Shown: positions 59,238 through 61,767 of the stretch, piece after piece
Numbering within the stretch: position 1 is the stretch's first letter
Layout: each line of letters starts with the position of its first letter
Assembly: GCF_008693385.1 (NCBI RefSeq)
Contig: NZ_CP044065.1
Span: 496,001 to 560,000, forward strand
Direction: 5' to 3'
DNA length: 64,000 nt
Origin: Cupriavidus pauculus
GTDB lineage: Bacteria; Pseudomonadota; Gammaproteobacteria; Burkholderiales; Burkholderiaceae
Program-made: the position numbers and the translations under genes
The notes under the pieces: model-generated
What the model saw: only the letters and a program-made list of their open reading frames with translations
Told to the model about the DNA's origin: nothing
Databases searched by the model: none

Positions 59238-60305
59238 ATGAAGATTGCAGTCCTGCCGGGCGACGGCATCGGCCCCGAGATCGTCGCGGAAGCCGTCAAG
59301 GTACTTGGCGCGCTCGACGAGAAGTTCGAACTGGAAACCGCGCCCGTGGGCGGCGCGGGCTACGAGGCCGAAGGCCATCCGCTGCCGGACAACACGCTCA
59401 AGCTGGCCAAGGAAGCCGACGCCATCCTGTTCGGCGCCGTGGGCGACTGGAAGTACGACAAGCTCGAGCGCGCGCTGCGCCCCGAGCAGGCCATTCTCGG
59501 CCTGCGCAAGCACCTGCAGCTGTTCGCCAACTTCCGCCCGGCCATCTGCTATCCGGAACTGACCGGCGCCTCGAGCCTGAAGCCCGAGCTCGTCGCCGGC
59601 CTCGATATCCTGATCGTGCGCGAGCTCAACGGCGATATCTACTTCGGTCAGCCGCGCGGCCTGCGCGAGGCGCCGGACGGGCTGTTCAAGGGCGCCCGCG
59701 AAGCCTTCGACACGATGCGCTACAGCGAGCCCGAGATCCGCCGCATCGCCCACGTGGCGTTCCAGGCGGCCGCCAAGCGCGGCAAGAAGCTGTGCAGCGT
59801 GGACAAGGCCAACGTGCTGGAGACGTTCCAGTTCTGGAAGGACGTCGTCATCGACGTCAGCAAGGAATATCCGGACGTCGAGCTGTCGCACATGTACGTG
59901 GACAACGCGGCCATGCAGCTGGTCAAGGCGCCGAAGAGCTTCGACGTGATCGTCACCGGCAACATGTTCGGCGACATCCTGTCCGACGAGGCGGCAATGC
60001 TGACGGGTTCCATCGGCATGCTGCCTTCGGCGTCGCTCGATGCGAACAACAAGGGCCTGTACGAGCCGTCGCACGGCTCCGCGCCCGATATCGCGGGCAA
60101 GGGTGTCGCCAACCCGCTGGCGACGATCCTGTCGGCGGCGATGATGCTGCGCTACTCGCTGAACAAGGCCGAGCAGGCGGACCGCATCGAGAATGCCGTC
60201 AAGAAGGTGCTGTCGCAGGGCTACCGTACCGGCGATATCCTCACGCCGGGCTGCAAGCAGGTCGGCACGCGTGAAATGGGCGACGCCGTACTCGCCGCGC
60301 TGTAA
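59238..60305 (+). CDS. leuB: 3-isopropylmalate dehydrogenase
   Basis: 355 residues. NAD-dependent isocitrate/isopropylmalate dehydrogenase family: [20 protein letters not shown] (N-terminus), [18 protein letters not shown] and [20 protein letters not shown] (metal/substrate site), and [18 protein letters not shown]. Third step of leucine synthesis. A strong hairpin follows 12 bp after the stop. Confidence 0.97.
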
Positions 60306-60316
60306 GTCGTATCAGG

Positions 60317-60342
60317 CGGGGCGGGCCGTATGGCCCGCCCCG
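60317..60342 (+). terminator. Hairpin terminator after leuB
   Basis: An 11-bp GC stem (GGGGCGGGCC with GGCCCGCCCC plus one closing C:G pair) and a GTAT loop lie 12 bp after the leuB stop, followed only by GTCGTATTT. It separates the leu operon from asd. Confidence 0.7.
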
Positions 60343-60391
60343 TCGTATTTCCGTGCGGCATCGCCGCAAAATATCGTGTAGACTCCCCCGC

Positions 60392-60541
60392 ATGGTCATC
60401 TCCCAGTCTATCCAGACTGCACTCTCCATCGCTGCTATCACCACGCGTGATATCGTCACCCCTGATTCGGGCGGCGTGGAGTCGCATGGCCCCGCGGTTA
60501 CCGCAACGACGATTAAAACCATTACCAAAACGATCCCCTAG
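60392..60541 (+). CDS. Candidate Thr/Ile/Lys-rich attenuation leader peptide of asd
   Basis: 49 codons from the ATG at 60392 to TAG at 60539-60541, between leuB and asd. Ten Thr and eight Ile residues in total; the last 13 residues are [13 protein letters not shown], six Thr, three Ile and two Lys. Codons here are AT-leaning (AAA, ATT), unlike the GC-rich neighbours. There is no clear ribosome binding site, but a possible -10 (TAGACT, 60379-60384) ends 7 nt before the ATG, so the transcript may be leaderless. Codons overlap hairpin arms. It resembles the E. coli thr leader in style, not in sequence. The start codon and coding status are inference. Confidence 0.5.
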
Positions 60542-60606
60542 ATCGTTCGTCGTGCCTGCCCGTCTTCCCCGCGCAGCCACGCCGGGCGAGGAAAATGGCG
60601 GGGAAG
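60506..60606 (+). promoter_or_regulatory. Alternative RNA structures between the leader ORF and asd
   Basis: ACGACGA (60506-60512) can pair with TCGTCGT (60547-60553). AACGATC (60529-60535) pairs with GATCGTT (60541-60547) around the leader stop. CTTCCCCGC (60564-60572) pairs with GCGGGGAAG (60598-60606), competing with GCCCG/CGGGC (60558-60562 and 60583-60587). No U-run follows, so Rho-independent termination is not evident. Confidence 0.55.
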
Positions 60607-60630
60607 TTCACATCACATCCGAGGTTTGTC

Positions 60631-61767
60631 ATGATTGTAGGTCTCGTCGGTTGGCGGGGAATGGTTGGCAGCGTCCTGATGCAACGCATGCAGGAAGAGC
60701 GCGATTTCGACCATATCGAGCCCATTTTCTTCAGCACGTCCAACGCTGGCGGCAAGGCGCCGGCGATGGCGAAGAATGAAACCACGCTCAAGGATGCCAA
60801 CGACATCGAGGCGCTGAAGAAGTGCGACGTGGTGCTGACCGCCCAGGGCGGCGACTACACCAACGACGTCTTCCCGCGCCTGCGCGCGGCCGGCTGGAAC
60901 GGCTACTGGATCGACGCGGCCTCGTCGCTGCGCATGAAGGACGATGCGATCATCGTGCTCGATCCGGTCAACCTCGGCGTGATCAAGGATGCGCTGGGCA
61001 AGGGCGTAAAGAATTTCATCGGCGGCAACTGCACGGTGAGCTGCATGATGATGGGCCTCGGCGGCCTGTTCCAGCACGACCTCATCGAGTGGATGACCTC
61101 CATGACGTACCAGGCGGCCTCGGGTGGCGGCGCGCAGCACATGCGCGAACTGCTGACCCAGTTCGGCACGCTCAACGCCGCGGTCAAGCCGCTGCTCGAC
61201 GACCCGGCTTCGGCGATCCTCGAGATCGACCGCCAGATCCTGGCGACCCAGCATGGCCTGTCCGCGGACGAGACCAAGCAATTCGGCGTGCCGCTGGCCG
61301 GCAACCTGATTCCCTGGATCGACAAGGACCTGGGCAACGGCGTGTCGCGCGAAGAGTGGAAGGGCGGCGCCGAGACCAACAAGATTCTCGGCCGTGGCGA
61401 AGGCTTCGTGGGCGCCACCGGCGCGGCCCCGATCGCCGTGGACGGCCTGTGCGTGCGGATCGGCGCGATGCGCTGCCATTCGCAAGCGCTCACTATCAAG
61501 CTGCGCAAGGATGTGCCGATCGACGAGATCGAAGGCATGCTCGCCGCGAACAACCAGTGGGCGAAGGTCGTGCCCAATACGCGCGAGGCCAGCATGACCG
61601 ACCTCACGCCCGCTGCCGTGACTGGCACGCTGACCATTCCGGTGGGCCGTCTGCGCAAGATGCAGATGGGCGGCGAGTACCTGTCCGCGTTCACCGTGGG
61701 CGATCAGCTGCTGTGGGGCGCGGCCGAACCGCTGCGTCGTATGCTGCGCATTCTGATCGAAGCCTGA
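60631..61767 (+). CDS. asd: Aspartate-semialdehyde dehydrogenase
   Basis: 378 residues from the ATG at 60631 (GAGG 6-9 nt upstream). N-terminal NADP motif [20 protein letters not shown] (about 2-21), catalytic cysteine in [10 protein letters not shown] and the C-terminal histidine in [12 protein letters not shown]. It reduces aspartyl phosphate to aspartate semialdehyde, the shared step for Lys, Thr, Met and Ile. It is a separate unit from leuB by the hairpin at 60317, with the leader ORF before it. Confidence 0.97.

Follow-up and report, generated by a model that had tools for sequence, protein, structure and literature searches.

A Thr/Ile/Lys leader peptide before asd in Cupriavidus and its relatives: a candidate attenuator that appears to be built into the end of leuB in a sister family

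Leader-peptide attenuators as such are a known kind of regulatory element. In the thr operon attenuator of Escherichia coli (thrL), a Thr/Ile-rich leader peptide is encoded directly before aspartate-family genes and alternative helices are located after its stop codon. Leader ORFs for which Rho-dependent control is suspected or shown include tnaC and mgtL/mgtP. In Streptococcus, the asd RNA motif is found upstream of asd, and we know of no leader peptide in that case. The 5' end of the Sinorhizobium meliloti trpL transcript coincides with the ATG of the leader, and two mutually exclusive structures are described for it (PMC7298713). Two other reports connect short ORFs with transcription that ends early although no classical terminator is present, in the case of mdtU-mdtJI (PMC7815308) and, as a suggestion, in that of the mycobacterial cys leaders (PMC1262725). 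Leaderless transcripts are documented in Burkholderia cenocepacia and Cupriavidus metallidurans (PMC4603805, PMC7563307).

The leuB-asd region of Cupriavidus pauculus analyzed here (Table 1) belongs to a contiguous stretch of 64,000 nucleotides, all of which is denoted the window. This region resembles E. coli thrL in that a Thr/Ile-rich leader is located just before an aspartate-family gene and is followed by putatively alternative helices after the stop, but differs in that the gene is asd, whose step is shared by the routes to Lys, Thr, Ile and Met, that Lys codons are added, that the start is predicted to be leaderless, and that there is no U-run. With S. meliloti trpL it would share the transcript start at the leader ATG, here predicted from the spacing of the promoter box only, whereas that system differs in its Trp codons, its alphaproteobacterial host and its described transcription terminator. 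As in tnaC, mgtL/mgtP, mdtU-mdtJI and the cys leaders, a short ORF is present and a classical terminator is not, although the signals and genes there are different and a role of Rho at asd is only inferred. The Streptococcus motif, also located upstream of asd, comes from a different phylum and was not matched in the Rfam searches of our region. At the gathering cut-off, Rfam identified only two tRNAs in the whole window, both outside this region, and no Thr_leader (which we take to be RF00506); for positions 60300-60660, searched with E up to 10, five weak matches were obtained, none of them to a leader family. The arrangement that characterizes the class, namely a short ORF with end-product codons just before a biosynthetic gene, is present here as a conserved ORF adjoining asd, with translation predicted. 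No description of the asd leader element was found in the open-access literature searched and, as far as that literature shows, the use of Thr, Ile and Lys codons together to control asd, a leaderless start without a U-run and, above all, the leuB-embedded form described below would be new. For Cupriavidus, Ralstonia and Burkholderia relatives, the proposal offers an explanation, open to test, of the control of asd as a gene on the route to lysine, threonine and isoleucine, and adds a predicted leaderless attenuator that has no U-run terminator.

Several claims of an earlier sequence-only reading of this DNA could be read directly from the letters: the ORF indeed encodes 49 residues, among them 10 Thr and 8 Ile, and ends with TAG; the hexamer TAGACT ends 7 nt before the ATG; and no U-run follows the last stem of the window leader. 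Both Lys codons of the leader are AAA, whereas all 42 Lys codons of leuB and asd are AAG. Homologues of asd were detected in 298 of 300 genomes of the order (E up to 0.001). Two inverted repeats are located between leuB and the leader. One of these, the strong G+C-rich GGGGCGGGCC..GGCCCGCCCC (60316-60345), is perhaps the leuB terminator; the other, TGCGGC-ATC-GCCGCA (60354-60368), just 5' of the -10 box, could be an operator, and similar repeats are seen in many Cupriavidus leuB-asd gaps.

Table 1. Features of the leuB-asd region (window coordinates)
Feature	Position	Strand	Basis
leuB, 3-isopropylmalate dehydrogenase, upstream gene, without Thr/Ile/Lys tail here	59238..60305	+	ORF; names in relatives
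-10 promoter box TCGTGTAGACT (predicted), hexamer TAGACT 60379-60384	60374..60384	+	identical in 21/21 Cupriavidus gaps
Leader ORF, predicted leaderless, 49 residues, stop TAG	60392..60541	+	start, frame and Thr/Ile/Lys end kept
Putative sensor codons ACG, ATT, AAA, ACC, ATC	60500..60538	+	Thr/Ile/Lys share of f1 leader ends
P1, codon region with post-stop region (ACGACGA/TCGTCGT, AACGATC/GATCGTT)	60506..60553	+	present; swap test marginal
C-rich, A-poor post-stop stretch, possible Rho loading region	60542..60574	+	base counts; rut role inferred
Helix A 5' arm CGTGCCTGC	60551..60559	+	97.9% of cells paired (35 f1 sequences)
Helix B 5' arm CTTCCCCGC	60564..60572	+	96.5% of cells paired (35 sequences); nearly invariant
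Helix A 3' arm GCAGCCACG	60573..60581	+	as 5' arm
Helix B 3' arm GCGGGGAAG	60598..60606	+	complementarity kept while loop length varies
asd Shine-Dalgarno site, likely: GAGG	60621..60624	+	sequence; 21/21 Cupriavidus gaps
asd, aspartate-semialdehyde dehydrogenase, regulated gene in the proposal	60631..61767	+	ORF; homologues; names in relatives

A DNA search over 40 relatives, the source genome among them, yielded 28 matches. These include 23 of the 24 Cupriavidus genomes, each matching across at least about 60503-60700, and five genomes outside Cupriavidus that match at the asd start only. The window and 20 of the 22 matching relatives, selected by DNA similarity, were aligned, giving 21 leuB-asd gaps; all 21 have the box and the ATG, a reading frame that stays open until a stop ahead of asd, and the Thr/Ile/Lys end. 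Two genomes carry an inserted base at the leader stop and nevertheless retain a stop (TAA in L012, TGA in L017). Given the persistence of all these features, and of the stop despite the inserted base, the comparison indicates that the Thr/Ile/Lys leader before asd is a real element, beyond chance. Few changes occur from position 60500 to the 3' arm of helix B, and the segment between helix B and the asd Shine-Dalgarno site is variable.

A pattern describing the post-stop RNA matched at least 119 stretches of named genomes, with organism titles obtained for 80 of these, and 112 of the matches listed are located before asd. The leader ORF is present in 108 of these 112 and absent in L085, L144, L145 and L106, the last being truncated by the end of its stretch. 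The titles comprise Cupriavidus, Ralstonia, Burkholderia, Paraburkholderia, Caballeronia and Trinickia, in all of which the leader precedes asd. Seven of the 119 matches listed (L088, L095, L111, L154, L155, L162 and L176) are not located before a recognized asd start, and three of the seven are, by title, from unrelated organisms (Sandaracinus, Treponema and Dehalococcoidia). Given that such a pattern selects its own letters, 40 asd upstream stretches chosen by genus from asd protein matches were added as a pattern-independent set, and the script identified the leader in 17 of them. The 23 script-negative stretches include three without an asd anchor (L193, L214 and L215); the genome of L193 was nevertheless matched by the RNA model, and L198 contains a weaker Thr/Ile/Lys ORF. 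In several genera, the gap is about 60 nt or less and contains no leader. The RNA model, built from 35 representatives (21 from the pattern set), matches 88 of 150 family genomes in 9 of 25 genera, with a single match in each genome, many of the matches being close kin of the model rows; among 200 genomes of the order, it gave 3 matches, all within the family of the window. On this point the sequence-only reading is supported, a Thr/Ile/Lys leader of the leaderless type being kept in Burkholderiales relatives; its interpretation as a whole is supported in part.

For family f1, that of the window, 150 records were assembled (some species twice, 116 distinct leader peptides) with a script that required a gap of 4-9 nt between hexamer and ATG and at least 6 Thr, Ile or Lys among the last 14 residues. 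Within the 4-9 nt required, the most frequent gap is 6 nt (82 of 150), and it is from the 4-9 nt spacing that a leaderless start is predicted. The box reads GTGTAGACT in 93 records, GTGTATATT in 49 and otherwise in 8. Under the requirement of at least 6 such residues, the last 14 positions comprise 34% Thr, 27% Ile and 16% Lys (36%, 25% and 17%, respectively, in the 42 records that do not derive from the pattern), and the Lys codons among them are AAA in 331 cases versus AAG in 13. The N-terminal part of the leader is variable and the length ranges from 36 to 60 residues; the constant feature is the Thr/Ile/Lys content near the stop. Searching the source genome with the box-ATG pattern gave 23 matches versus 30 in the backward control, so the pattern is uninformative beyond asd.

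A sister family, f49, is Comamonadaceae-like and includes Hydrogenophaga; the LeuB protein of one member, G072, is identical to that of Hydrogenophaga sp. PBL-H3. We analyzed 65 f49 loci, which comprise 60 of the 79 genomes with matches and 5 earlier loci. A separate leader (for example, MFAARPFTLNTTAAALAAVAVRAITTKTTTITG) is present in 21 of these, 3-9 nt past a box such as CTACAAT. In 30 loci there is no separate leader by the criteria used, and LeuB itself ends with a Thr/Ile/Lys tail (AAITKTITKG, AAIVGSTASTTTKTITKKS). The 14 loci scored as neither are an upper bound given that at least two of them (L234 and L243) still show the hairpin letters. The tail is present in 119 of the best 120 LeuB proteins nearest to that of G072, the named ones being mostly from Hydrogenophaga. 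Among loci of other families (39) and f1 stretches without a leader (22), the LeuB end is plain wherever it could be read; Thr/Ile/Lys matches there were L292 and L198, together with a repeat, VETKQETKQETK, in L212. The same sensor appears to be built into the LeuB tail in some relatives.

Downstream of the leader stop, helices A and B are paired in 97.1% of the cells in 35 f1 sequences, compared with 39-57% after the partners were slid. On these comparisons, helix A, which is absent from the sequence-only reading, is the best supported alternative helix. At one of its pairs, both sides are changed in 7 of the 35 sequences versus a mean of 1.4 in shuffles that leave the relatedness of the sequences in place; covariation in f1 is limited to this one pair, and the pair types are not above the shuffles (500 of 500 as high). 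When partners were swapped, the arms of helix A paired less well than with their own: 2 of 2000 permutations did as well, and 10 of 2000 in the pattern-independent set. The same test on helix B in f1 gave no difference, helix B being nearly invariant. Counted from the first base of the stop codon, the 5' arm of helix A begins after 10-14 nt in f1, which is about the distance at which the front edge of a terminating ribosome is expected. All 35 distinct f1 arm pairs of helix A leave the middle position unpaired (C-C, C-U, U-C, C-A, among others), as if pairing were avoided there.

The stems proposed in the sequence-only reading fared unequally. Its CTTCCCCGC/GCGGGGAAG stem is helix B, present and conserved. 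The stems that it drew between the codons and the post-stop region, ACGACGA/TCGTCGT (60506-60512 with 60547-60553) and AACGATC/GATCGTT (60529-60535 with 60541-60547), exist as complementary segments but are only marginal in the swap test (223 of 5000 permutations as good). For the GCCCG/CGGGC stem, the letters are there (60558-60562 with 60583-60587) but swapped partners do as well as its own (1045 of 5000 permutations as good), and this stem was not retained. A wider helix D (CCCGC..UCUU with AAGAU..GCGGG), attractive in single species, was rejected after failing the swap test in four versions (744, 4383, 1262 and 2485 of 5000 permutations as good).

Folding of the f1 sequences with the ribosome footprint blocked, under a nested model, did not reproduce a switch between these helices. 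In the window, the probability of helix A exceeds 0.5 only with stalls 6-7 codons upstream, and that of helix B is 0.01 with the ribosome at the stop. Averaged over the 35 f1 folds, P(B) rises from 0.28 with the ribosome at the stop to 0.41-0.44 at stalls 2-5 codons upstream, which is opposite to the switch model; P(A) reaches only 0.07-0.27 with a stalled ribosome, from 0.00 at the stop. The two helices of f1 cross without common bases and lie directly next to each other: the 5' arm of B adjoins the 3' arm of A in 149 of the 150 records, of which 108 had been selected with a pattern spanning that stretch. Given that they cross and abut, an A-B pseudoknot, which the nested model cannot represent, is possible in f1 instead of mutual exclusion.

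In f49, the two helices follow the stop in the same order as in f1, with other sequences. The loop and 3' arm of hairpin B (CCCCGGC..GCCGGGG) are also open to pairing with a segment such as GCTCCGGTTCGTC; A and B therefore share bases here and exclude each other. Pairs were counted by a script with anchored arms in 47 of 51 rows, 44 of them distinct (L231 and L220 were excluded as too short, L236 and L043 as unanchored). Helix A is paired in 81% of the cells versus 24-49% in slid versions; this fraction is little above that in shuffles (81.1% versus 79.1%; 7 of 500 as high), and changes on both sides number 22 versus 13.6 (2 of 500 as high). In the swap test (50 of 51 loci, L258 dropped), the helix A duplex has -21.2 kcal/mol with its own and -20.2 kcal/mol with swapped partners (2 of 2000 permutations as good); the effect is weaker within subgroups (104 of 2000 for tail loci, 31 of 2000 for leader loci), and a control segment gave nothing (1037 of 2000). 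Folding of 48 of the 51 loci predicts that the choice between A and B depends on the position of the ribosome, with B favored at the stop and A when the ribosome is stalled on the sensor codons. Specifically, with the ribosome on the stop, P(B) is 0.64 and P(A) 0.15, A being above B in 12 of 48 loci, whereas stalls 2-5 codons upstream give P(A) of 0.70-0.75 and P(B) of 0.16-0.21, with A above B in 36-39 of the 48. At stalls 9-12 codons upstream neither helix is preferred, the odds being about even, and without a ribosome P(A) is 0.38 and P(B) 0.50. The LeuB-tail loci alone show a weaker toggle (P(A) 0.59-0.69 at the 2-5-codon stalls). In some f49 leader loci (L045, L256 and L268), a second, A+T-rich hairpin, AAACAG..CTGTTT, is located between B and asd; in several f49 leader loci it is followed by T-rich sequence and might be a weak terminator. 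LeuB-tail loci such as L222, L225 and L265 seem to have an outer helix around B; its arms differ and yet are complementary (GGACCCC/GGGGTCC, ACAAACCC/GGGTTTGT).

The best explanation of these observations, and in our judgment a likely one, is a ribosome-read attenuator of asd with Rho-dependent output, asd probably being switched on when Thr, Ile and Lys run short. The conserved ORF, the promoter box, the codon bias, helices A and B and their spacing are features of the compared sequences; the model predicts in addition where the RNA starts, that the leader is translated and the ribosome stalls, that the window itself has the toggle, that Rho acts, and in which direction asd is regulated. Transcription would start at or beside the ATG (60392), and translation of the leader peptide would proceed without a Shine-Dalgarno site. 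With ample Thr, Ile and Lys, the ribosome would reach the stop and cover the 5' arm of helix A with its front edge; helix B would then form and the free C-rich RNA would be open to Rho, so that transcription would end before asd. Under a shortage of charged tRNA for Thr, Ile or Lys, the ribosome would wait on the sensor codons, helix A would form, B would be prevented or altered, and asd would be transcribed.

As to the output step, the 33 nt after the stop contain, on average over the 35 f1 representatives, 15.8 C, 8.4 G, 7.9 T and 0.9 A, and the 8 nt past helix B are T-poor, with 0 or 1 T in 48 of 51 f49 loci and 1-3 in 133 of 150 f1 records, so that the G+C-rich hairpin followed by a U-run expected of an intrinsic terminator is not seen after B. 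Given the lack of a U-run and the C-rich, A-poor post-stop stretch, Rho-dependent attenuation would be favored, with translational control next. Under the latter scenario, the same sensor would act through the A/B fold or an A-B pseudoknot that alters ribosome access to asd; the missing U-run is compatible with this, helix B of the window ends only 24 nt before the asd ATG, and the abutting arms in f1 would allow a pseudoknot of the H type. However, B is generally farther from the asd start in f49, which makes a shared translational block less natural, and a non-systematic look found no conserved helix holding the asd Shine-Dalgarno site; we regard translational output as a possible but unlikely alternative.

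An intrinsic terminator formed by helix B itself, of a kind that needs no U-tract, is suggested by the strong G+C-rich stem kept in both f1 and f49; given that intrinsic termination depends on a U-tract and that the sequence past B is T-poor, this possibility appears improbable. A product of the ORF that acts in trans as a small protein, with the conservation of the RNA being secondary, has a precedent in peTrpL of S. meliloti, a leader peptide described as acting in trans (PMC7298713), but is hard to reconcile with the variable N-terminal part and length, and with the relocation of the Thr/Ile/Lys end to LeuB in f49, and we consider it very unlikely. Short ORFs are common, and the window contains many, so that a chance ORF without function in a conserved promoter region could be envisaged; its conservation, and the recurrence of the leader in two families, leave this explanation with hardly any plausibility.

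Returning to attenuation and its LeuB-tail form, the DNA of leuB points to an internal promoter. In the LeuB-tail genomes, the Ala-Thr-Ile codons of LeuB read GCT ACA AT and thus spell CTACAAT in 29 of 30 cases, compared with 0 of 10 leader genomes and 2 of 9 of the rest (49 of the 65 f49 loci were counted, the leuB motif lying outside the retrieved stretch in 16); of the 453 Thr codons found elsewhere in these stretches, only 17 are ACA. When synonymous choice was scanned, the strongest departures in the tail group lay between the box and about 12 codons past it, including the codons beside ATG ATG, and these are missing in the other f49 group; a weaker constraint is seen 13-18 codons upstream of the box. 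The box and these departures suggest a promoter and a nearly leaderless internal start within leuB, such that the leader peptide would be an in-frame C-terminal fragment of LeuB. The association of the box with the tail group (Fisher p 4e-10 for tail loci versus the others) is not fully controlled for relatedness given that the Asd tree is poorly resolved, with two outgroup rows not together, and that there are only four well-supported independent pairs, which agree or are uninformative, with none opposed, and are too few for significance; the supported branches of the tree force at least 5 changes of the tail state.

We therefore consider it fairly probable that, in f49, the last 7-18 codons of leuB serve as a Thr/Ile/Lys leader for asd, with a leuB-internal promoter producing a short in-frame RNA for the C-terminal piece of LeuB, so that one DNA stretch would be enzyme tail, promoter and amino-acid sensor at once and evolutionarily interchangeable with the free leaderless leader. 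If so, a regulatory peptide has been absorbed into the end of an enzyme, with its promoter written in synonymous codons, and such a sensor would be hardly visible to protein annotation alone. Two other f49 loci (L267 and L239) have the CTACAAT box in leuB with a degenerate or missing Thr/Ile/Lys tail, which could represent decay or an intermediate. A third architecture is seen in L292 (family f14), where a short ORF that ends with RTTTIITKTVMKG and has AGGAAG before its ATG is located right after leuB and precedes asd.
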